64,000 nt of DNA from assembly GCA_027619225.1 (NCBI GenBank), contig JAQCFW010000009.1:1-64000 (forward strand). The letters are read 5' to 3'. The notes beneath the pieces are model-generated. The model saw only the letters and a program-made list of their open reading frames with translations. It made no database searches and had not been told where the DNA came from. The position numbers were made by a program, and so were the translations under genes. The stretch is from Bacteroidota bacterium. Its GTDB lineage: Bacteria; Bacteroidota; Bacteroidia; Flavobacteriales_D; Sanyastnellaceae. This document shows positions 26,160 through 51,048 of this stretch, piece by piece. Position 1 is the stretch's first letter, and every line of letters starts with the position of its first letter.

Positions 26160-27230
26160 ATGTCTAAATTCCAAACACTCCGAGTCGCAGAGATCTGTCG
26201 TGAAACTCCTGACGCAGTTTCGATTTTACTCGAACCCGTTTCGGGCGAATCTATCAGCTTCCTTGCAGGCCAGTACCTCACGCTCCTTGCTCAAATAGAT
26301 GGGGAGGATGTTCGTCGCAGTTACTCACTATGTTCAGCTCCTTCAGAAGGAATTCTACGTGTTACAGTTAAGGAAGTGCCAGGAGGTAAATTTAGCACAT
26401 TCTGTAACCGCTTACTTGCTGTTGGCGATACACTTGAGTCTCTCCTTCCTGAAGGTCGTTTCACTCGCGATTTCAACGCCTCCGTTAAAAACCACCTTGC
26501 CATCGCTTCCGGCTCAGGAATTACTCCTGTTATTTCATTAATAAAGGACGTCCTTTCCACCGACCACTCAGCTAAAGTTGCCCTTTGTTATGTTAACAAA
26601 GAGACTTCGAGTATCATATTCAAAGACGAACTGTCTGACCTAAAAGACACCTACTTAGAACGTCTTCAGCTCTTCAACTTTCTCACGCGAGAACCTGTCG
26701 AAATCGAACTCTTCTCAGGTCGCCTTGACTCAGAGCGTCTATCGCGTCTTTTTCCAGAAGTTATTTCCCCAGCATCTTTTGACGTCGCCTACTTATGCGG
26801 CCCTGAATCTATGATTTCAGATTGTAAATCAGCTCTCACAGGGGCAGGTATGCCCGACTCAGCTGTGAAGTTTGAACTCTTCACAGCCTCCTCAGATCCC
26901 GTTAACGAAGATCGTATCGAAACCACATCGTCTGCTTCTGCTGATGAGGTCGATGTTTCCATAGTTCTTGATGGCATTACAACTCGAGTTTCTGTAAAGC
27001 GCTCAGGTAAATCTATTCTCGAAACTGCTTTACAAGCTGGAATCGATGCACCATTCTCGTGCCAAGGAGGAGTTTGCTGCACTTGCCGTTGTAAAATGAC
27101 TTCCGGTCGCGCTTCGATGGATATCAACTTTGCTTTAGAAGAAGAGGAAGTGGAGAATGGTTATGTTCTTGCATGTCAATCTCATCCCGAAGGAGATGGG
27201 CCATTTGTAATGGACTTCGACCAGCCTTAA
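26160..27230 (+). CDS. paaE: Phenylacetyl-CoA epoxidase reductase PaaE
   Basis: A 356-residue flavin/ferredoxin reductase that passes NADPH electrons to PaaA. The N-terminal FAD domain has RRSYSLCSAP, the NAD(P) domain has HLAIASGSGITPVISLIKDVL and AYLCGPESMI, and the C-terminal plant-type [2Fe-2S] domain has Cys ligands in APFSCQGGVCCTCRCKM plus the distal VLACQSHP. It is transcribed divergently from paaABCD, sharing the FNR-like site. Genes for phenylacetate-CoA ligase, ring-opening and beta-oxidation (paaK, paaG, paaZ, paaF/H/J) are not in the window. Confidence 0.95.
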   Translation: MSKFQTLRVAEICRETPDAVSILLEPVSGESISFLAGQYLTLLAQIDGEDVRRSYSLCSAPSEGILRVTVKEVPGGKFSTFCNRLLAVGDTLESLLPEGRFTRDFNASVKNHLAIASGSGITPVISLIKDVLSTDHSAKVALCYVNKETSSIIFKDELSDLKDTYLERLQLFNFLTREPVEIELFSGRLDSERLSRLFPEVISPASFDVAYLCGPESMISDCKSALTGAGMPDSAVKFELFTASSDPVNEDRIETTSSASADEVDVSIVLDGITTRVSVKRSGKSILETALQAGIDAPFSCQGGVCCTCRCKMTSGRASMDINFALEEEEVENGYVLACQSHPEGDGPFVMDFDQP

Positions 27231-27279: not shown

Positions 27280-27616
27280 TGTGCTCACAGTGTAAACACT
27301 ATTTTTCTTAGTGCTAGAATTTTTATCAGTGTAGTTAGGTTGTAAGAGAGCTATTTTTCAAATAAGTGTGCTGACACGTTAGCACACTTATTATTATTAA
27401 AAAATCGCCGGCAGCTATATTTTAAAATAAGTAAATAATAACATGCGAAATCTTATAAGGACAAAAAATGTGCTATCACAGTTAACTATTTAGTCCAAAC
27501 GGCAATTGCTCCAAAAGTTGAGGTGACTTGTAACCACATATTTTTTTCAGTTTTCACAGAGTTTTGTGCCTGTTCAAAGGTTTTCGCGAAAAGTGCGGTT
27601 ACACTGTCAGCAGATA
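27280..27616. repeat. Composite inverted-repeat element, copy A (337 bp), in the 441-bp paaE / ABC-F gap
   Basis: The gap 27231-27671 between two convergent genes has no credible gene. It holds four ~24-bp sites in the order L1 27280-27306, L2 27367-27392, R2 27519-27548 (inverted) and R1 27588-27616 (inverted). L1 reads TGTGCTCACAGTGTAAACAC, L2 TGTGCTGACACGTTAGCACA, R2 (minus strand) TGTGGTTACAAGTCACC and R1 (minus strand) TCTGCTGACAGTGTAACCGC. Compared with copies B and C there are ~125 extra bases between L2 and R2, containing a partial site (TGTGCTATCACAGTTAAC, 27469-27486). No target-site duplication is obvious. It is probably a MITE or decayed transposon. Confidence 0.7.
27361..27392. 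terminator. 12-bp perfect hairpin, possible bidirectional terminator for paaE / ABC-F
   Basis: AATAAGTGTGCT and AGCACACTTATT form a perfect 12-bp stem with an 8-nt loop, within site L2 of repeat copy A. A-T-rich sequence lies on both sides, but there is no long T run. It is the only strong hairpin between the two convergent genes. Confidence 0.4.
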
Positions 27617-27671: not shown

Positions 27672-29552
27672 CTACGCTCTTTCAGCCAACTCAAGCCATC
27701 GCATCTCTGCTTCGTCTAAATCTGAGGTGACCTGACCTAGTTCATTCCCCAGTTTTATTAAATCTTCGTGAGAATTACACGTTTCAAGTTTAGCGGATAA
27801 CGTGTCGCGCTTCACCTCGAGCTGTTCAATAAGAGGTCCGAGTTTGTCAAACTCAAATTTTTCTTTGTACGATAGTTTAGCGGTGTAATCGCCTTTTACT
27901 TCAAGAGGCTTCGAAACAGAGTCAGAGCCAGCAGTCTCTGCTCGAGCTACGGCAATCTTTTCATCGCGTGATAACCTATACTGTGTGTAGTTGCCAGGGT
28001 AGTCACGTATTGAAAGATCTTCGTTTTCGCCGAGAGCCCAAATATGCTCTACGATTTTGTCCATAAAATACCTGTCATGAGATACTACAAGAAGGCAGCC
28101 GGCAAAATCTAGGAGAAACTCTTCTAACACAGCGAGGGTGAAGATGTCAAGGTCGTTCGTGGGCTCGTCTAGGATAAGAAAATTAGGATTACTCATTAAC
28201 ACCCTGAGAAGGTGAAGTCGTTTACGCTCTCCTCCGCTCAGGACTTTAATGTACTGGTGATGCATATGTCGGGGAAAGAGAAAGCGTTCTAGGAGTTGAG
28301 CTGCTGATAGCTGAGCCCCTCCTTTAAGAGGGATATAATCGCCTATTTCACGAACAGCATCGATCACCTTCCATTCCTCACTGAAATCACCGCCCTGCTG
28401 GTGATAATGTCCGAATACGACTGTGTCGCCTACGACGACTTTTCCAGAATCAGGCGCTTGTTCGCCTAATATCATTTTTAAAAGCGAGGTTTTGCCAGAG
28501 CCATTAACTCCAACGATACCTATGCGCTCGCCTCTAAGGAAGTGATGAGTAATGCTTTCGAATAAAATCCGGTTGCCGTATGCACACTTGATTTTATGCA
28601 GTTCCACAATCTTCCCTCCAAGACGTGATGGGATGACACTTATATGCATAGGGTCTTCCTTTAGACGTATAGATGCCTCCTTTTTTATCTCGTAAAAGCG
28701 GTCTATTCTGCTTTTGCTTTTGCCGGTACGGGCTGAAGGAGTGGAGCGCATCCAAGCCAGTTCGCGTTTCATCGCTTTCTGCGAGCGGTCTTTAGAAGCG
28801 AGTGCATTTTCTCGCCTTTCGTCCCGCTTTTCTAGGTAGTAGCTAAAATTCCCTTTGTAGGGGTGTAGCTTTAAGTTTTCGAGTTCTAGGATACGATCAC
28901 ATACATTTTCGAGGAAATATCGGTCATGAGTAATCATGAGGATGGTAGAATTCATGGCGGCGAGCCGCTTTTCAAGCCAATTAATCATGTCTAGATCGAG
29001 ATGATTTGTAGGCTCGTCTAGGAATAGGAGGTCGGGGGCTTCGAGTAGAACGGCCGCGAGAGCCGCCCTGCGTCTTTCACCACCACTTAGAGATCCGACT
29101 TTGCGGCTCAAGTCGTGGAGGTTTAGTTGGCCTAGTATTTCACGGGCGCGGGCTTCATAATTCCAAGCTTCTGTCCTGTCCATAGCATCACTGGCCTCCT
29201 GAAATTTTACACCTTCGGCATCACGTTCCAATTCTCGCTCGTAGTTCCTAAGAGCTATCACAGCTGGATTGTCACCTATATATAGTGTATCAAGAAGCGT
29301 TGCCTTCGGGTCTAAATCCGCTTCTTGCTTCAAATAAGAATAACGAATACCCCCCGCAAATGCAATCCGTCCCTCATCTGCGGGCTCAAGATCACAAAGG
29401 GCTCGCATAAGCGTACTCTTCCCTGTACCGTTACGTGCAACAAGCGCCACCCTTTGGCCTTTGCCTATTCCGAATGTAAGATTCTCAAAGAGTTGACGCT
29501 CTCCATACCTTTTCGAAAGCCCCTCAACCGATAAAATGTTCTTTTCTGCCAT
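27672..29552 (-). CDS. ABC-F family ATPase (Uup-like)
   Basis: A 626-residue soluble protein with two ABC domains and no membrane segments. First domain: Walker A ARNGTGKST, signature GSLSGGERRRAALAAVLL, Walker B LLFLDEPTNHLD. A linker (about 230-320) with a basic stretch follows. Second domain: Walker A GVNGSGKTS, signature LSGGERKRLHLLRVL, Walker B FLILDEPTNDLD. The C-terminal ~70 residues form a coiled coil (LEVKRDTLSAKLETC...LDEAEMRWLELAER) as in Uup. ABC-F proteins act on the ribosome, and Uup also affects DNA or branched intermediates. A TACCTTGC box lies 4 nt before the ATG. Confidence 0.92.
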   Translation of the reverse strand: MAEKNILSVEGLSKRYGERQLFENLTFGIGKGQRVALVARNGTGKSTLMRALCDLEPADEGRIAFAGGIRYSYLKQEADLDPKATLLDTLYIGDNPAVIALRNYERELERDAEGVKFQEASDAMDRTEAWNYEARAREILGQLNLHDLSRKVGSLSGGERRRAALAAVLLEAPDLLFLDEPTNHLDLDMINWLEKRLAAMNSTILMITHDRYFLENVCDRILELENLKLHPYKGNFSYYLEKRDERRENALASKDRSQKAMKRELAWMRSTPSARTGKSKSRIDRFYEIKKEASIRLKEDPMHISVIPSRLGGKIVELHKIKCAYGNRILFESITHHFLRGERIGIVGVNGSGKTSLLKMILGEQAPDSGKVVVGDTVVFGHYHQQGGDFSEEWKVIDAVREIGDYIPLKGGAQLSAAQLLERFLFPRHMHHQYIKVLSGGERKRLHLLRVLMSNPNFLILDEPTNDLDIFTLAVLEEFLLDFAGCLLVVSHDRYFMDKIVEHIWALGENEDLSIRDYPGNYTQYRLSRDEKIAVARAETAGSDSVSKPLEVKGDYTAKLSYKEKFEFDKLGPLIEQLEVKRDTLSAKLETCNSHEDLIKLGNELGQVTSDLDEAEMRWLELAERA

Positions 29553-30246: not shown

Positions 30247-30720
30247 ATGTATTCATTCCACAGCTCTTCTTGGTCGGATCTCACGAGAGACCAGTTTCAT
30301 TCAATAGTAAGACTTCGCATTGATGTTTTCGTAGTTGAACAGGATTGTCCGTATCCTGAACTTGACGCTAAGGATTTAAAATCTATACAAGTCTATGCAT
30401 TAAAGAGTGACGAGAATATTGCCTCAGGAGATTCAGCAGCTGCTTGTGTTAGAATATGCGCTCCAGGAGTTAGCTATCCTGAGCCGAGTATAGGCCGAGT
30501 AGCGACACGTCCTGATTGCAGGAAAATGGGGCTCGGAATAGAGATAATGAAAAGAGCCATTGATGCGTGTGAGTCTGCTTATCCCGGTCAGGGAATCCGT
30601 ATTTCTGCTCAGTGCTACCTTGAAAAGTTCTATGCTAACCTGGGGTTTTCCTCCACTGGCGAAACCTACTTAGAGGATAATATCCCCCATATCCAAATGT
30701 TTCGACCTAGCTCGACCTAG
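30247..30720 (+). CDS. ElaA-like GNAT N-acetyltransferase
   Basis: A 157-residue GNAT protein. The ElaA signature is clear: LRIDVFVVEQDCPYPELDAKDL, and the acetyl-CoA P-loop region appears as GRVATRPDCRKMGLGIEIMKRAI. The C-terminal strand GIRISAQCYLEKFYANLGFSSTG is family-typical. The substrate of ElaA proteins is not known. It is a single gene, convergent with pyrG. Confidence 0.9.
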   Translation: MYSFHSSSWSDLTRDQFHSIVRLRIDVFVVEQDCPYPELDAKDLKSIQVYALKSDENIASGDSAAACVRICAPGVSYPEPSIGRVATRPDCRKMGLGIEIMKRAIDACESAYPGQGIRISAQCYLEKFYANLGFSSTGETYLEDNIPHIQMFRPSST

Positions 30721-30755
30721 CTCAAGTTGATTTTAACGACTAGTCGCCCCAATTG

Positions 30756-32429
30756 CTAATCAGCATCAATCAGTCCAGGGCCTGATAAAACAGTGGCCTT
30801 AACAAATGCCATAAAGAGGGGGTGAGGTGCGAGTACAGTAGATGCGTATTCTGGGTGAAACTGTGTCGCTACAAAGTATGGGTGAGAAGGTATCTCAATA
30901 ATCTCAACCAATCCGTTAACCGGGTTGATTCCCGTAGCGATCATACCTGCATCTTCAAACCTAGTTCGGTATGCCTCGTTAAATTCATATCGATGTCTGT
31001 GGCGTTCTTCAACTGAATCTATTCCGTAGATTGATTTCGCTCTTGACCCTTCTTTTAAATCACAAGGGTAAGCTCCGAGCCTCATGGTTCCACCCATGTT
31101 TTTAACGGATTTCTGTTCCGCCATAATGTCAATGACTGGGTGAGGCGTGTATTGTTTAATTTCAGAAGAATGAGCCTCGGTTAAACCGAGTACATTTCTA
31201 GCAAATTCTACAACGGCGCATTGCATTCCGAGGCAAATCCCGAAGAATGGAATTTCGTTTAAGCGGGCGAATCTTATCGCTTCAAGTTTCCCATCTATCC
31301 CCCTAGATCCAAATCCAGGAGCGACCAATATTCCATCTAACTTTCCAAGAATCTCTAATGAAGTTTTAGGTGTAACTTTCTCGGAGTGAATCCAATGAAT
31401 CTCCACCTTGTTTTTCAAGTGAGCTCCCGCATGGGCAAGAGCTTCTGAAATACTTTTATAGGAGTCCTTTAGCTCCACATACTTCCCAACTAGTCCAATA
31501 TGAACTGTTGAGTCTGGATTTTTATATCTGTATAGGAATTCTTTCCAATCTTTTAAATCGGGCTTATCGACAGTGCTATAGTCAATTCCTAACTTACTCA
31601 TAACCACCTCATCAAGCCTCTCTTCTTGCATTAATAGTGGAACGTCGTAAATGGTCTCTGCATCTATTGATTCAATGACAGATTCTATATTTACATTACA
31701 AAATTGAGCTAGCTTAGACCTTATGCTGTGGGTAAGGTGATGTTCTGTTCTGCAAACGAGAATATCGGGTTGAATGCCCAATTGTAGTAGTTGCTTTACT
31801 GAGTGCTGAGTGGGCTTCGTCTTTAACTCACCTGCAGCACTCAAATATGGAACGAGGGTTAGGTGAATGACTAAAGTATCATCAGGACTTTCCCACTTCA
31901 TCTGTCTCACAGCCTCGATATATGGCAAAGATTCAATATCTCCCACTGTACCTCCAATTTCTGTAATCACAAAGTCGAATTCAGATTCAGAACCTAAAAT
32001 CTGTACACACCTCTTAATTTCGTCGGTGATATGAGGGATGATTTGGACTGTCTTACCGAGGTATTCACCGCGCCTCTCCTTATTTATTACCGACTGATAG
32101 ATCCTCCCAGTAGTAATATTATTTGCCTGAGTAGTGCATACGTTTAGGAATCTTTCATAGTGCCCTAAGTCCAAATCGGTTTCCGCACCATCAACAGTCA
32201 CATAACACTCCCCATGTTCATACGGGTTCAAAGTACCAGGGTCAACATTGATATACGGATCGAGTTTCTGAATGGTAACTCTGTAGCCACGAGCTTGCAA
32301 AAGCTTGGCCAAAGAGGCGCTTACAATACCCTTCCCCAAACTCGAACTAACGCCCCCAGTCACAAAAATATAACGACTGTTGCTCCCTTTTGAGGAGGGG
32401 TTAGATGAAGAAGATTGTGTTAATGGCAT
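30756..32429 (-). CDS. pyrG: CTP synthase
   Basis: A 557-residue enzyme converting UTP to CTP with glutamine. The N-terminal synthase domain contains RYIFVTGGVSSSLGKGIVSASLAKLLQ, KLDPYINVDPGTLNPYEHGECYVTVDGAETDLDLGHYERF and ITEIGGTVGDIESLPYIEA. The C-terminal class I glutamine amidotransferase has the nucleophile in FFGICLGMQCAVVEFARN and the His/Glu pair in ATQFHPEYAS. ATG 32429 is preferred over 32477: the N-terminal extension is unlike the family, and a TAACTTTG box lies between the two candidates. Confidence 0.97.
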   Translation of the reverse strand: MPLTQSSSSNPSSKGSNSRYIFVTGGVSSSLGKGIVSASLAKLLQARGYRVTIQKLDPYINVDPGTLNPYEHGECYVTVDGAETDLDLGHYERFLNVCTTQANNITTGRIYQSVINKERRGEYLGKTVQIIPHITDEIKRCVQILGSESEFDFVITEIGGTVGDIESLPYIEAVRQMKWESPDDTLVIHLTLVPYLSAAGELKTKPTQHSVKQLLQLGIQPDILVCRTEHHLTHSIRSKLAQFCNVNIESVIESIDAETIYDVPLLMQEERLDEVVMSKLGIDYSTVDKPDLKDWKEFLYRYKNPDSTVHIGLVGKYVELKDSYKSISEALAHAGAHLKNKVEIHWIHSEKVTPKTSLEILGKLDGILVAPGFGSRGIDGKLEAIRFARLNEIPFFGICLGMQCAVVEFARNVLGLTEAHSSEIKQYTPHPVIDIMAEQKSVKNMGGTMRLGAYPCDLKEGSRAKSIYGIDSVEERHRHRYEFNEAYRTRFEDAGMIATGINPVNGLVEIIEIPSHPYFVATQFHPEYASTVLAPHPLFMAFVKATVLSGPGLIDAD

Positions 32430-37194: not shown

Positions 37195-38013
37195 ATGAAA
37201 ATTCGTGATGGTGTTTCAGCAACTTTTAGGGCCTTGCCTTTTATGGCTTCGAACGGTCTTTTAATTTGGTTTCTTCCAGCATTTTTTCTGACTATAGCCT
37301 TAAGTTTTGGAGCTTTTACTCTAATAGATATGGCAGTTGATGGTGCAGATCATCTGTATACAACAACGTTTGGGGAACATTCTTTAGCTGTATGCGGTGA
37401 AGGTATGATCGCAATGGATTGTATTGAGGAAATAATCAGAGCAATAGGTTCTTATATGTTGAGTATAGTTGTGTGGATTGGGCTTTTTTGGTTAAAAGTC
37501 AAACTCATGAAATACTTGGTGCTTATTTTCCTGGGCCCCGTAATGGCTATGCTGTCTGAACTTACAGAGCAGAAGATTACGGGTGTTGTTCGTCCATTTT
37601 CTTTGGGTAATTTTTTGCGAGAGGTGTTTCGAGGAATACGCACGGCCTTGCTTTATTTAATTATTGAGCTTTGTCTTGCGATTTTGCTTTTGATTGTGGC
37701 TCTCGTTGTTGGTTTTATGTTTCCTATTTTACTTCCAGTGATTGCTCCACTTGAGTTGTTAATTGCTTTTGTTATGGGGGCCTTCTTTTACGGTGCTGCT
37801 TCTATGGATTATGTTTGGGAGCGAGAAGGGGCCGGAGCTGTTGAATCTATTCGTATGGCTTTTAAATCTCGCCGTCTTGCAGTAGGATTAGGTATTGTAT
37901 TCTCGGTTTTAATGGCTATTCCCATTTTGAACTTTACACTTGCTCCAATCTTTGCCCCTGCGGTTACGGCTGTTGCAGCATCACTTGTGTTGAAAGGAAG
38001 CGCAGGAAATTAA
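37195..38013 (+). CDS. EI24/CysZ-like membrane protein
   Basis: A 272-residue EI24-domain protein with about six hydrophobic helices, including LLYLIIELCLAILLLIVALVVGFMFPILLPVIAPLELL. The YGAASMDYVWEREG motif precedes SIRMAFKSRRLAVGLGIVFSVLMAIPILNFTLAPIFAPAVTAVAASL at the C-terminus, which is family-typical. CysZ members move sulfate; the Bacteroidota group is uncharacterised. A CACATTGC sequence lies 4 nt before the ATG (one base off TAnnTTGC). It is divergent from mpl. Confidence 0.87.
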   Translation: MKIRDGVSATFRALPFMASNGLLIWFLPAFFLTIALSFGAFTLIDMAVDGADHLYTTTFGEHSLAVCGEGMIAMDCIEEIIRAIGSYMLSIVVWIGLFWLKVKLMKYLVLIFLGPVMAMLSELTEQKITGVVRPFSLGNFLREVFRGIRTALLYLIIELCLAILLLIVALVVGFMFPILLPVIAPLELLIAFVMGAFFYGAASMDYVWEREGAGAVESIRMAFKSRRLAVGLGIVFSVLMAIPILNFTLAPIFAPAVTAVAASLVLKGSAGN

Positions 38014-38062: not shown

Positions 38063-38274
38063 TGTGCGGACAGTGTCGTCGCACTTTTTTTTAATTTATC
38101 TATTACATCTGTTAATGCTAGATAAATTCAGACACTGCTGTGTTTACATGTTAGCGCACTTTTGAATTGTATTTCTGCGTTAACGTGTAACCGCACTTGT
38201 GATTAGGTTTTTTAAGATTATATAGGGGTTGCGAGGGTGATTTTGTGTAAGAACGTTTACACTGTCGACACACA
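38063..38274. repeat. Composite inverted-repeat element, copy B (212 bp), in the 309-bp EI24 / aroA gap
   Basis: The gap 38014-38322 between convergent genes carries four sites: L1 38063-38092 (TGTGCGGACAGTGTCGTCGC), L2 38139-38163 (TGTGTTTACATGTTAGCGCA), R2 38176-38200 (inverted, TGCGGTTACACGTTAACGCA) and R1 38249-38274 (inverted, TGTGTCGACAGTGTAAACG). The element starts TGTG and ends CACA. L2 begins 76 bp from the left edge, exactly as in copy C. A T8 run follows L1. No gene or target duplication is visible. Confidence 0.72.
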
Positions 38275-38322: not shown

Positions 38323-39606
38323 CTATGGGACCTCACACATGCAACCACCTATGCTGGCGAGATCATCAAAAAACATAGGATAGCTTTTGGCAACGCAATC
38401 AGCGTCTAAGATCTCGATGTCAGCCGCGCCAGCACAGCCTAAGATAGCCGCAGCCATAACGATGCGGTGATCGCCATGAGGGTCAATACGGCAAGCTGTC
38501 GTTTTTTTACAAGGGTGAATAACCAATGTATCATCCTCTCTTTCTATTCTTACACCGGCTTTAGCGAACTCAGAGATGAGTACTGAGGCTCTGTCTGATT
38601 CTTTTGATGAAAGTCTGTTGGCGCCGCTTAAACGAGATGGTTTGTTGCTAAAGGCTGCGAGAGCGCATAGAACAGGGAAGAGGTCTGGCGAATTCGACAA
38701 GTCTAGGTTAATTGCGCGAGGTCTCTTTTTCTTCAAGTTTAGGCCGTCATCTGTTCCAAGTATATGATAACCGGCGAAGAGCATAGCTCCTTTGATGGCC
38801 GAGTCGGCTTGCGTAAATATTCCACGTATGCCCTTTATTTCTAAATCGGGGCGAGCACATAGTCCACCAAGAACGAGGAAGGTGGAGGCGGCGCTCCAAT
38901 CTCCGTCTGTTGATAGAGGGAGAGATCGAGAGGTTTGGCCTGCAGGGATGAGGAAGGTGTCGCAGGAATCGAGCGTTTCATGAGTGAAATCAAGGTCGAA
39001 CGCCCGCATCACTTCAAGGGTCATTTCAATGTAGGGCCGGGAGGTTAAGTTGTGCACCAAGACCTTTGAATCCTTTTCAGCATAAGGCAGAGCAAGCAAA
39101 AGGCCGGTTAGAAATTGGGAGCTTATGCTACCGTCAATTTCGATTTCACCGCCAACCAATGGTCCTTCAATTGTAATGGGCAATGTGTTGCCGCCAGTCG
39201 TTTTTACGCCAAGAGCAGCGAGGCCGTTAGTGACCATTTCAAATGGGCGATTCATCAATGAGCCTTCACCAGTTAAGGTAAGTGTGTCAAGTGAAAGAGC
39301 GGCAATGGGGGCAAACAAGCGTGCTGCAAGGCCAGATTCGCCAGCATGTAATTTTTCACTTCGTGGGCGAGGGATGCTGGATTGGCAGGGTGTGATCCTA
39401 ACGGAGTCGCTGCCAAGTTCTATTTCTCCCCCAAGAGCGGCGGCAATGCTTAAAGCGATGTTCGTGTCGTCACAATCACTGATTCCATGAAGCATTGTCG
39501 GGGAGTCTGCCAATAGGGCAGCAGCAATAAAGCGTGCGCTAAGACTTTTCGAAGGGGGAGCTGTGACTTCACCTGAAAGCGTGCTTGGCGAAACGCGAAT
39601 TATCAT
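38323..39606 (-). CDS. aroA: 3-phosphoshikimate 1-carboxyvinyltransferase (EPSP synthase)
   Basis: A 427-residue enzyme of the shikimate pathway. Landmarks: TAPPSKSLSARFIAAALLAD (PEP/shikimate-3-phosphate binding), HAGESGLAARLFAPIAALS, LTGEGSLMNRPFEMV, the SSQFLTGLLLALPY segment and the C-terminal DPHGDHRIVMAAAILGCAGA. It transfers enolpyruvate from PEP to shikimate-3-phosphate. It is the last gene of the minus-strand run from the symporter at 45885, overlapping the ubiE stop by 4 bp (ATGA). Confidence 0.96.
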   Translation of the reverse strand: MIIRVSPSTLSGEVTAPPSKSLSARFIAAALLADSPTMLHGISDCDDTNIALSIAAALGGEIELGSDSVRITPCQSSIPRPRSEKLHAGESGLAARLFAPIAALSLDTLTLTGEGSLMNRPFEMVTNGLAALGVKTTGGNTLPITIEGPLVGGEIEIDGSISSQFLTGLLLALPYAEKDSKVLVHNLTSRPYIEMTLEVMRAFDLDFTHETLDSCDTFLIPAGQTSRSLPLSTDGDWSAASTFLVLGGLCARPDLEIKGIRGIFTQADSAIKGAMLFAGYHILGTDDGLNLKKKRPRAINLDLSNSPDLFPVLCALAAFSNKPSRLSGANRLSSKESDRASVLISEFAKAGVRIEREDDTLVIHPCKKTTACRIDPHGDHRIVMAAAILGCAGAADIEILDADCVAKSYPMFFDDLASIGGCMCEVP

Positions 39607-46561: not shown

Positions 46562-46564
46562 TTG

Positions 46565-48448
46565 ATGCAACTGTCGGTAATCATAGTCAGCTATAACGTT
46601 GAGGCATTCCTTGCCCAATGCCTTGTTTCTGTCGAACGGGCGATAACACACTATTCTGAAGCTTCAGGTAACTATGATGCTATAGAAGTGTGCGTAGTCG
46701 ATAATATTTCTGTGGATGGCACCACTGAGATGGTGAAAACTAAATTCCCTTGGGTTAAGCTGATTGAGAATACAGAAAACGTAGGTTTTTCTATTGCAAA
46801 TAACCAAGCTATAAAAATATCTGAGGCCAAATACGTTCTGCTCCTCAACCCCGACACCGTAGTCCAAGAAGACACCTTCACCGAGTGCATGGCTTTCGCC
46901 AACGCCACCCCTAAATTGGGATGTTTGGGCGTCCCCATGTTCGACGGCTCAGGGACGTTTTTACCTGAGAGTAAAAGAGGGATTCCTACGCCTTGGGCAT
47001 CATTTTGTAGGATATCCGGACTTTTTCACCTCGCTCCTGCAAGTAAGAACTTGAACAGTTATTACGCCGGTCATCTTAGCGCTAACGAGATAAATAAAAT
47101 AGATATCCTATGCGGCGCCTTCATGTGGATGCGACGTGAAACCCTCTTAGAAGTGGGACTGTTGGACGAGGATTTCTTTATGTACGGAGAGGATATCGAT
47201 TTGAGTTGGAGGATTATAAAAGGAGGTTGGGACAATTATTATTTCTCAGGTACTCGTATAATTCACTACAAAGGCGAGAGTACTAAGAAAGGTAGCCTCA
47301 ACTATGTGACGATCTTTTACAACGCGATGCTCATTTTTGCAGCCAAACATTTTGAGGGCTCTCAGGCGAGCATGTTTAACATGTTCATACGTATCGCTAT
47401 CTATGCTAGGGCAGGGATTTCTATCATTCGGAGAGTATTGACAAAAATAAGTTGGCCCGTTCTTGAAGGATTGGCTCTTCACATAGGACTCTTTATTTTG
47501 CTTGGCTTTTACTCAGATTATTCGGGCATTCTGTACGATAAATCCGTAACTATAAAGGCGCTTTGCATCTATTCGGTTTTCTGGGTTTTCACGCTTTACC
47601 TTTTCGGTGGATATGATAAACCATGGATCCCACGAAGAGTAATCCGAGGAATCGCAGTCGGTTCGTTGGTTTTAATTGCAGGATATGGACTGCTTCCAGA
47701 AGCGCTTCGATTTTCTAGAGCCATCCTCCTACTGGGGCCGTTTTGGTTTGCTGCTGTTGTAATTTCGGGGCGCATCTCCCTTGGTGGTTGGCGTTTAAAT
47801 GCCAAACCGACTTCTCGCCTCATCATTGCATCTCCCACGGAATCCACAGCCATCTCAAATATGCTCGACTCTGTCGAACTTCGAGGGAACATCTCCGAAT
47901 CCACAACTGTAATAGGCCCAGATGAAATCAACACTGTTTCTGAATTGGTAAGAATAAAGTCGATTGGTGAGGTCGTCTTTAGTGGTAGAGATGTAAGCGC
48001 AACAGACATCATTACCGCTCTCTCTTCTCTTGTTAATAAAACGGTGGTGTGTAGAATTGCCTGGACTGATGACGGATCCGTTATGGGTGCAGGCGGCCCA
48101 GGTCCAGACCCCGTCACCGAGCTCGACCGAGCTATTTACGGCCCCTCGGCCCGACGCTCAAAACGCATTTTAGATCTCCTTTCGTCATTAACTCTCCTTC
48201 TTTTTTCACCCCTCCTTATCCTCTCGGGCCGATCCCCATGGATATCTCGCTCCTTCAGAGTCCTCCTGGGAAAAGCGACTTGGGTAGGCATTGACGCTCC
48301 AGGCAAAGAATCACGACCTTCCGTCTTTAATGCCGTTGAAAACGATGACGATAGAATAAAGGAGAGAATGAACTTGGCTTACGCTCGAAAATACAACTGG
48401 TTCGAAGACTTGAAACTTGTTTTTCGTGCGTTATTTATTCGTTCATAA
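46565..48448 (+). CDS. GT2 glycosyltransferase fused to a degenerate sugar-transferase-like membrane module
   Basis: A 627-residue protein. Residues 1-~240 are a family 2 glycosyltransferase of the rhamnosyltransferase type (LSVIIVSYNVEAFLAQCL, VVDNISVDG, LLNPDTVVQED, CGAFMWMRRETLLEVGLLDEDFFMYGEDIDLSWRI). Several membrane helices follow (~295-400), then a nucleotide-binding-like segment, and at ~535-560 RRSKRILDLLSSLTLLLFSPLLIL, the membrane helix that opens polyprenyl-phosphate sugar transferases. Their catalytic core after that helix is mostly missing; only the typical tail YARKYNWFEDLKLVFRALF remains. It probably acts in surface polysaccharide synthesis. It is 3 bp after recR. Confidence 0.85.
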   Translation: MQLSVIIVSYNVEAFLAQCLVSVERAITHYSEASGNYDAIEVCVVDNISVDGTTEMVKTKFPWVKLIENTENVGFSIANNQAIKISEAKYVLLLNPDTVVQEDTFTECMAFANATPKLGCLGVPMFDGSGTFLPESKRGIPTPWASFCRISGLFHLAPASKNLNSYYAGHLSANEINKIDILCGAFMWMRRETLLEVGLLDEDFFMYGEDIDLSWRIIKGGWDNYYFSGTRIIHYKGESTKKGSLNYVTIFYNAMLIFAAKHFEGSQASMFNMFIRIAIYARAGISIIRRVLTKISWPVLEGLALHIGLFILLGFYSDYSGILYDKSVTIKALCIYSVFWVFTLYLFGGYDKPWIPRRVIRGIAVGSLVLIAGYGLLPEALRFSRAILLLGPFWFAAVVISGRISLGGWRLNAKPTSRLIIASPTESTAISNMLDSVELRGNISESTTVIGPDEINTVSELVRIKSIGEVVFSGRDVSATDIITALSSLVNKTVVCRIAWTDDGSVMGAGGPGPDPVTELDRAIYGPSARRSKRILDLLSSLTLLLFSPLLILSGRSPWISRSFRVLLGKATWVGIDAPGKESRPSVFNAVENDDDRIKERMNLAYARKYNWFEDLKLVFRALFIRS

Positions 48449-48485: not shown

Positions 48486-48699
48486 TGTCTGCTTACAGCG
48501 TAAACGTTGATTTTGCTCTTTTTTGAGGAATCCCTTACTTACCTATGCCTTCAGGGCCAATCGATGAGAAATGTGTGGTTACAAGTTACCACAGGTGCCA
48601 ATGTGTGGCAACGTGTAAGCACATGCTAATTGTGATTTTGTTTGTGTCATCAAGACTTAATAAGGTTTTTAAAAATAGTGCGACAACACTGTCCACACA
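48486..48699. repeat. Composite inverted-repeat element, copy C (214 bp), opposite orientation, in the 380-bp GT2 / E2 gap
   Basis: The gap 48449-48828 holds a copy inverted relative to A and B. On the minus strand: L1 48671-48699 (TGTGTGGACAGTGTTGTCGC) and L2 48600-48623 (TGTGCTTACACGTTGCCACA). On the plus strand: R2 48568-48593 (TGTGGTTACAAGTTACCACA) and R1 48486-48514 (TCTGCTTACAGCGTAAACG). L1 is nearly identical to L1 of copy B, including the following T-rich run. L1-to-L2 distance is 76 bp, as in B. The element lies between the glycosyltransferase stop and a duplicate of that gene's 3' end. Confidence 0.72.
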
Positions 48700-48828: not shown

Positions 48829-50193
48829 ATGGCAATCATAGAAATCCTCCTCCCTAAAATGGGCGAAAGTGTGGCAGAGGCCACTATAATTAAATTTCTA
48901 GTTGATGCTGGGGCAAATGTCGAGGCAGACCAGGCCGTAGTAGAAATAGCAACTGACAAGGTTGATAGTGAAGTTCCAGCTCCAGAAGATGGAGTGCTTG
49001 TTGAATGGCTAGTCTCAGAAGATGACGTAGTTCAGGTTGGAGATCCAATTGCCCGATACGAGATTGGCGGTGAAGCTACTTCTTCAGCATCTGCCTCAGT
49101 TTCTTCTCCAGCTCCCAAATCTGAACCTTCTCCAGTTCCCTCTCAAGATGTTGTTGAAATGGTTTCCGCTCCTCTTGCAGCGGCAGTAGTTGTCACATCT
49201 CCTGCAAGAACAGGTAAATCTGGGCGTTTCTACTCTCCACTTGTAAGAAGCATTGCTTTGGAAGAGGGAGTAAGCATGGAAAATCTAGAGTCTATACATG
49301 GTACTGGTGCTGAAGGTCGTGTGACGAAGAAGGATATGATCGCGTATTTAGCGAACCGTGGTGGTACAACAGTTACAACAGCAAAGCCGACACCAGCTAA
49401 TCTCACTAAACCGGCTATAGCATATAAAGTCTCTGCTTCATCTGATGAACCGCATCCTGCATTCAAATCTGTTTCTGGTGGATATGAAATTGTTGAGATG
49501 GATAGGATGCGTAAGATGATTGCCAAGCACATGGTTGATTCTGTACAAACATCTCCACACGTTACTTCTTTTGTTGAAGCGGATGTGACGAGTTTGGTGC
49601 TTTGGAGAAATAAGAATAAGAAAGAATTTCAAGAGAAATTCGGTGAGAAATTAACTTTTACTCCTTTAATTGCGGAAGCTATTGTTAAGGCTATTGGTGA
49701 TTTTCCTGGAGTGAATGCGAGTATTGATGGGGATAACGTTGTGATTCATAAGGGTATTCATCTCGGGATGGCTGCAGCTCTGCCTACAGGTAATCTGATT
49801 GTTCCAGTGATTAAAAATGCCAACTCATATAACCTCCAAGGACTCGCTCGTGCAATTAATGATTTAGCAAATCGTGCAAGACTTGGGAAATTAGGTCCGG
49901 ATGATATTTCTGGTGGTACCTACACGATGAGTAACGTGGGGACTTTTGGAAATGTAATGGGAACTCCTATTATTAACCAACCCCAGGTTGGAATTCTGGC
50001 ACTTGGAGCTATACGTAAAAAACCTGCTGTTATTGAAACTCCTGAAGGAGATGTTATTGCAATACGTCATATGATGTTCCTTTCTCACAGCTATGACCAC
50101 AGAGTTGTTGATGGTCAATTGGGAGGTAGTTTCGTTCAACGAGTAGCTGATTACTTAGAGGCGTTTTCTTTAGATCGCCCATTAGAAGGATAA
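48829..50193 (+). CDS. Dihydrolipoamide acyltransferase (E2) of a 2-oxo acid dehydrogenase complex
   Basis: A 454-residue E2 protein. The lipoyl domain (1-80) has its Lys in EIATDKVDSEVPAP (K44). A Ser/Pro/Ala-rich linker follows, then the E1/E3-binding domain (~138-175: YSPLVRSIALEEGVSMENLESIHGTGAEGRVTKKDM), a second linker and the catalytic domain (~220-454) with HRVVDG (H424, D428). It moves acyl groups to CoA. The subtype is not certain: branched-chain or 2-oxoglutarate are both possible, and no E1 or E3 gene is adjacent. The exonuclease gene begins 3 bp downstream. Confidence 0.92.
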   Translation: MAIIEILLPKMGESVAEATIIKFLVDAGANVEADQAVVEIATDKVDSEVPAPEDGVLVEWLVSEDDVVQVGDPIARYEIGGEATSSASASVSSPAPKSEPSPVPSQDVVEMVSAPLAAAVVVTSPARTGKSGRFYSPLVRSIALEEGVSMENLESIHGTGAEGRVTKKDMIAYLANRGGTTVTTAKPTPANLTKPAIAYKVSASSDEPHPAFKSVSGGYEIVEMDRMRKMIAKHMVDSVQTSPHVTSFVEADVTSLVLWRNKNKKEFQEKFGEKLTFTPLIAEAIVKAIGDFPGVNASIDGDNVVIHKGIHLGMAAALPTGNLIVPVIKNANSYNLQGLARAINDLANRARLGKLGPDDISGGTYTMSNVGTFGNVMGTPIINQPQVGILALGAIRKKPAVIETPEGDVIAIRHMMFLSHSYDHRVVDGQLGGSFVQRVADYLEAFSLDRPLEG

Positions 50194-50196
50194 GAC

Positions 50197-51048
50197 ATGA
50201 TGGATTTAGAAGCAGCTCTCAAAAATTTACATCTCAAGAGGCCTCTCGTAGTTTTCGATCTGGAAACTACTGGAGTACAAGTTGGGAAGGATAGAATCGT
50301 TGAAATTGCAATGATTAAGGTTTCTCCTGATGGATCTGTGGTGCGTAAGCCAGAGAAAGCAGGGAATGATTATAGAATCCTTGTAAACCCAGAAATGCCA
50401 ATTCCGCTTGAGTCTTCTCTTGTTCATGGTGTTTATGACGAGGATGTAAAAAGTAAGCACACCTTTGGAGCTATAGCTCCGGGGTTAGTGAAATTTCTTC
50501 AAAATTGTGACTTAGGTGGATTTAATAGCAACCGTTTTGACGTTCCTATGTTGGCTGAGGAGTTTTTGAGGGTTGGAGTAGATTTTGGATTAGAAGGCCG
50601 AAATCTCATAGATGTCCAAAACATCTTCCACAAAATGGAGCAACGCACCCTTAAAGCTGCCTACAGATTTTACTGCGACAAAGAACTCGAGGGAGCGCAC
50701 GAAGCATACCCCGATACTGCCGCAACATTAGAAATTCTTGTAAATCAACTTGAAAAATATGCTGAGGCAACTATTAGCGACAGCCGAGGCGAAAAAGTAG
50801 GGCCTGTACCTTCAGATATGGATGAGCTCCATAAATTCTGCCAACGAACTCGCAACGCAGATCTCGCTGGTAGACTCATATATAATGACGACGGTGTAAT
50901 TGTATTCAATTTTGGTAAGAACAAGGGAGTTTCTGTAAAGGAACTTATTGAGCGTGATCCTGGATATTTCGGATGGATGATGAAAGGAGAATTCCCTCGT
51001 TACACGAAGCGTGTCTTAGAACAAATTAAAGAGGGCACCCTTAAATAA
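50197..51048 (+). CDS. DnaQ-like 3'-5' exonuclease with ExoX-like C-terminal domain
   Basis: A 283-residue DEDDh exonuclease. ExoI motif: VVFDLETTGVQVGKDRIVEIAMI (D21, E23). ExoII lies in LGGFNSNRFDVPMLAEEF, and ExoIII in EGAHEAYPDTAATLEIL with the catalytic His and Asp. The C-terminal ~90 residues (LIYNDDGVIVFNFGKNKGVSVKELIERDPGYFGWMMKGEF) match the exodeoxyribonuclease X C-terminal domain, which binds DNA. A proofreading or repair role is likely. It lies between the E2 gene (3 bp) and a glycosyltransferase (7 bp). Confidence 0.92.
   Translation: MMDLEAALKNLHLKRPLVVFDLETTGVQVGKDRIVEIAMIKVSPDGSVVRKPEKAGNDYRILVNPEMPIPLESSLVHGVYDEDVKSKHTFGAIAPGLVKFLQNCDLGGFNSNRFDVPMLAEEFLRVGVDFGLEGRNLIDVQNIFHKMEQRTLKAAYRFYCDKELEGAHEAYPDTAATLEILVNQLEKYAEATISDSRGEKVGPVPSDMDELHKFCQRTRNADLAGRLIYNDDGVIVFNFGKNKGVSVKELIERDPGYFGWMMKGEFPRYTKRVLEQIKEGTLK

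Follow-up and report, generated by a model that had tools for sequence, protein, structure and literature searches.

Six short, gene-less insertions with paired palindromic sites at both ends in the genome of a marine Flavobacteriales bacterium

What is the composite unit that occupies the gap between two convergent genes at 38063–38272 of the window (the whole stretch of 64,000 nucleotides analysed here) and recurs at two other places in it? An earlier note on this DNA described a dispersed element with four sites in a fixed order, regarded it as a MITE or decayed element and pointed to IS21- and Tn7-type transposons. The genome examined (G000, 2.03 Mb in 49 contigs, 97% complete) belongs to a marine member of the Flavobacteriales and contains six short insertions without genes, about 200–335 bp each, every one of them carrying four palindromes of protein-binding type. 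In our opinion, the three copies in the window (A, B and C) and the three copies elsewhere (D, E and F) are slightly better explained than not, with a probability of about 0.55, as insertions of a single old family of non-autonomous mobile elements that are short, contain no genes and resemble MITEs.

Architecture of the half-elements

Each copy consists of two inverted half-elements, and each half-element of an outer and an inner dyad; all 12 ends align when read from the outside inwards. The outer dyad, TGYGNNNAC-AGT-GTNNNCGCA, comprises 21 bp: two half-sites of 9 bp each flank a centre of 3 bp, which usually reads AGT, though ACT, ATT and AGC occur too. The inner dyad, TGTGNTKAC-AY-GTNNNCACA, is of the same kind, has a length of 20 bp and a 2-bp centre, mostly AC and in some cases AT or AA. 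The common half-site is TGYGNTKAC, in which G4, A8 and C9 never vary across the 48 half-sites of nine bases, and the outer ends tend to start with TG. The sites of about 24 bp described previously are real, but each is a dyad rather than a directional site, and outer and inner sites differ in their centres.

The sites in the window were found where they had been reported. Copy A extends from outer dyad to outer dyad over 27280–27614, between the convergent FNR-like (26160–27230) and ABC-F (27672–29552) genes. Its left outer dyad, TGTGCTCAC-AGT-GTAAACACT (27280–27300, plus strand), belongs to a long-type end together with the left inner dyad, TGTGCTGAC-AC-GTTAGCACA (27367–27386, plus strand), and its right inner (27519–27538) and right outer (27594–27614) dyads, both on the minus strand, form a short-type end. 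The left inner dyad of this copy is lengthened to a nearly perfect palindrome of 15 bp, AATAAGTGTGCTGAC/GTTAGCACACTTATT (27361–27392), which could serve as a bidirectional terminator between the convergent genes. Copy B (38063–38272) is situated between the convergent EI24/CysZ-like (37195–38013) and aroA (38323–39606) genes and includes the plus-strand dyads TGTGCGGAC-AGT-GTCGTCGCA (left outer, 38063–38083) and TGTGTTTAC-AT-GTTAGCGCA (left inner, 38139–38158) and the minus-strand right inner (38176–38195) and right outer (38252–38272) dyads. Copy C (48488–48699) lies between a family-2 glycosyltransferase gene (46562–48448) and an odhB-like gene (48829–50193). Its long-type left end contains TCTGCTTAC-AGC-GTAAACGTT (outer, 48488–48508) and TGTGGTTAC-AA-GTTACCACA (inner, 48574–48593) on the plus strand, and its short-type right end contains the inner dyad at 48604–48623 and the outer dyad TGTGTGGAC-AGT-GTTGTCGCA at 48679–48699, both on the minus strand. 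The nearly identical pair of outer sites that had been noticed in B and C exists, but it is formed by the left end of B and the right end of C, read from the other strand.

The start-to-start distances between outer and inner dyads in the 12 ends are 87, 76, 76, 77, 86, 76, 75, 76, 86, 88, 85 and 75 bp. Instead of the single value of 76 bp proposed for both B and C, the spacing therefore takes two values, 75–77 bp (7 ends) and 85–88 bp (5 ends), which are about 10–11 bp, or approximately one helical turn, apart. It is periodic (Rayleigh p ~1e-4 for a period of 10.5–11 bp), whereas the distance between the two inner dyads of a copy (22–152 bp, start to start) shows no phasing. Long and short ends are combined in A, C and F; in B and D both ends are of the short type, and in E both are of the long type.

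The dyads are most likely double-stranded binding sites and not hairpins. At the variable positions, the two halves of a dyad match each other no better than they match halves of other dyads, and folding clearly above that of shuffled sequence was found in only 2 of the 24 dyads, both of them left inner ones (copy A, z −7.2; copy C, z −3.0). This scarcity of folding and the lack of excess stem complementarity favour protein sites in double-stranded DNA. Since, in addition, neither the window nor copy B matched an Rfam family, the reading of the dyads as hairpins or RNA elements was rejected.

Copies D (C31:36473–36695), E (C49:49798–50021) and F (C9:2855–3056) were found in a whole-genome pattern scan as pairs of inverted outer sites with starts about 180–205 bp apart. 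The pattern of the outer sites was derived from B and C, so that D, E and F played no part in its definition; with at most 1 mismatch it gave 4 + 4 matches genome-wide versus 0 + 0 for the reversed-pattern control. Although only outer sites were used in the scan, each of the three new copies has inner dyads at the expected positions. The inner-type consensus (at most 3 mismatches) occurs 9 times in the window versus 0.36 times expected, with a maximum of 3 across 100 shuffles. The idea of a composite unit with a fixed site order, whose sites are commoner than in shuffled DNA, is hence borne out by six copies of the same architecture, and the count of three copies and 12 sites, correct for the window, doubles for the whole genome to six copies with 24 sites. 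A whole-element BLAST search within the same genome returned only faint partial matches, because the spacers are unrelated between copies.

Four of the six copies sit between convergent genes. Copies A and B are separated by about 10.8 kb, and B and C by about 10.4 kb (window 27280–48699). If the copies were placed at random, three of six would fall within 21.5 kb with P = 0.006, a value biased by the choice of the window for its three copies. GC-skew gave no clear turn that would indicate an origin or terminus near the window.

Insertion into short gene gaps and occurrence in one species

Comparison of gene gaps with those in related genomes explains how the copies came to their places. The nearest relative, SZUA-1004/G010, has about 91% DNA identity around aroA. 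At locus A, the gap is 441 bp here versus 10–38 bp in three congeners and 1–2 bp in G010; at locus B, between the EI24-like gene and aroA, 309 bp versus 15–49 bp in G005, G001 and G009 and about 20 bp in SZUA-1004/G010; and at locus C, 380 bp versus 10, 10, 180 and 135 bp in congeners. At all four testable loci (A–D), the same gene pairs with short, element-free gaps were found in G010 and other comparable congeners, as the empty-site comparison suggested in the earlier note would have it. When some 50 pairs of adjacent genes in the window were compared with those of three congeners, the gaps proved nearly equal in almost all cases, and only the three gaps with elements have grown, by 200–400 bp. 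From these short element-free gaps and the restriction of expansion to three places, it follows that the window copies are insertions into previously short gene gaps.

Copy E adjoins holA at a synteny break. Beside it, after holA, a protein of 235 aa with only the N-terminal DUF1016 domain is encoded (L069:8075–8782, i.e., G000 C49:50074–50781); this looks like a truncated YhcG-type nuclease gene. Another local peculiarity concerns window 50193–50197, where two adjacent genes are separated by 3 bp here and in G009, and their orthologues lie about 2.2 kb apart in G005 and G001.

The search for target-site duplications at a constant offset gave nothing above shuffled controls. Two candidate repeats, GATTTATA at A (8 bp) and AGTTGA at B (6 bp), were discarded, their offsets being inconsistent and their occurrence not above controls. 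As no duplication was found and the insertion is maybe old, the element is not classified as a proven MITE.

A profile of the half-element, based on sequence only and built from the 12 copies of it, finds exactly 12 half-elements in the genome (50–69 bits), all of them paired and inverted; the next-best match anywhere reaches 22.6 bits and overlaps a known copy. The scores of the 12 are circular, because the profile was trained on them, and the absence of matches elsewhere is free of this circularity. There was no credible match in 13 congeners and 106 other members of the family and order, nor in 395 genomes drawn from the phylum (the two sets overlap by a few genomes; about 500 in total), and the profile search proposed earlier for genome and relatives has thus been productive in the former only. 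Among the genomes searched, the element is restricted to this species. In IMG/VR, strict half-element and single-site patterns revealed no half-element; the 43 single outer-site matches gave a best profile score of only 18 bits. Distant BLAST against plasmids and phages yielded nothing or T-rich matches at chance level, and a literature search by the letters of the half-site retrieved no relevant motif.

Age of the family and its possible mode of movement

The spacers are nearly unrelated among copies, conservation being far stronger in the sites that they separate. The five ends with long spacers nevertheless bear a faint resemblance to one another in these spacers: of all 792 possible groups of five ends, theirs ranks first, with a mean z of 1.9. 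The reversed control was negative, and the short-spacer ends have no comparable excess. These data are consistent with one old family having two end types of common descent, whose spacers would have drifted almost past recognition. Had the copies transposed since G010 diverged, their spacers should still be about 60% identical, as we estimate from the alignment of the gap at locus C. The combination of drifted spacers with zero change at G4, A8 and C9 leaves two options: the copies differed from one another before they arrived, or selection has maintained the sites since. It is mainly on this account that the probability of the mobile reading is kept at the value given above. What speaks against mobility is the lack of a parent gene and of a target-site duplication, along with the almost unrelated spacers.

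If the elements are mobile, a recombinase or transposase that acts in trans and binds DNA as a dimer would probably contact the outer dyad near the terminus and the inner dyad 7 or 8 helical turns inward, on the same face of the helix. The bound protein would bend or loop the 52–64 bp between the dyads, the two ends would be paired and the unit would then be inserted into gaps behind genes. Two phased dimer sites at both ends of an insertion are expected of a nucleoprotein complex that pairs ends and bends spacers; a dimer, a looped spacer and an enzyme acting in trans are our inference. It may be that the copies no longer move.

In the assembled 97% of the genome, the profile found neither a gene flanked by half-elements nor a lone half-element, so this part holds no autonomous copy, and no genes were found between paired half-elements. 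Three genes of large serine recombinases (514–528 aa) are present at C21:3772–5346, C49:1681–3225 and C19 ~30477–32063 (L227, L228 and L229). Full-length enzymes of this type occur in this genome only within the genus: 11 of the 13 congeners have no resolvase-domain match, and 2 have short ones. At least two of the three genes have 3′ ends, or C-terminal tails, resembling tRNA-gene integration ends, which makes it probable that several integrative elements have entered the genome. No credible profile match was found around 7 of 8 resolvase- or integrase-domain matches. The large serine recombinases were rejected as parents, no element sites being present in the surrounding stretches, and for this reason remain candidates only.

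Alternative explanations and known systems

The same strongly kept sites and nearly unrelated spacers may be read as working clusters of binding sites, regulatory, centromere-like or nucleoid-organising, for a host DNA-binding protein, two dimers of which would be bridged by a phased loop; such clusters, also an alternative in the earlier note, would have arrived by insertion and now be kept by selection. Helical phasing of the dyads and the biased clustering of three copies fit this explanation. We consider it unlikely on balance, though worth keeping, since promoters are not expected between convergent genes, the setting of four of the six copies, the sites occur in no congener and the protein is only putative. 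It is tentatively suggested, too, that the copies represent an undescribed class of mobile element or chromosomal anchoring site, with ends reduced to two phased dimer-binding dyads (3-bp and 2-bp centres) and spacers of unconstrained sequence, moved or bound by a kind of protein not yet linked to such sites.

Ends of the Mu, Tn7 and IS21 type have more than one binding site, and these sites are directional; Mu possesses a bent spacer between outer and inner sites. Our element shares the multiple inverted sites per end, the tendency of outer ends to begin with TG and two end types one helical turn apart, as internally deleted remnants of such a DDE transposon might. However, its sites are dyads, and it is unusual for a DDE transposase to have palindromes at both positions of an end; with neither a constant-offset target-site duplication nor a transposase gene between flanking half-elements in the profile search of the assembled genome, this origin is improbable, and the IS21/Tn7 parentage proposed before is unsupported. 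Equally doubtful is a serine or tyrosine site-specific recombinase system, in which crossover would take place at the outer dyads and the inner ones would be accessory sites. In res sites of Tn3-type resolvases, one half-site forms mutually phased dyads with different central spacing, and our dyads likewise share a half-site, differ in their centres and are phased; the three large serine recombinases, in a genus where most members lack a resolvase-domain match, add to the resemblance. Against it, these genes are unaccompanied by element sites, at least two have the tRNA-type 3′ ends mentioned above, and the central bases vary between sites and copies, although recombining sites normally must match there.

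REPINs and REP doublets (PMC3116915, PMC3733652) are also extragenic inverted palindromes with variable, diverse sequence between them, and movement of single-stranded hairpins by a RAYT (Y1) transposase would be conceivable. REPs form hairpins with GTAG or CGTC tags, whereas the dyads here are mostly without stems, only two fold clearly and their halves show no extra mutual match; two dyads per end, positioned by helical phasing, complete the difference and make a REPIN-like nature very improbable.

MITEs have been reviewed elsewhere (PMC2229807). Like them, the mobile elements that we favour are short, gene-less and intergenic, and have several copies, inverted ends conserved in 12 of 12 cases (50–69 bits) and element-free gaps at A–D in relatives. 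Unlike them, our copies share only four dyads and their spacing, while MITE copies usually share the whole sequence, a simple terminal repeat and target duplications. The earlier suggestion of a MITE or decayed element accordingly agrees with insertion into short gaps, but neither a target duplication at a constant offset nor, in the assembled genome or IMG/VR, an autonomous parent was found with it.

If the elements are mobile, they demonstrate that phased dimer sites can be all that is left of a transposon end; if they are kept by selection, the copies mark a recently gained system of sites in a bacterial chromosome. With only about 80 of 210 bases in common, distributed over four dyads, such elements are missed by ordinary repeat finders.
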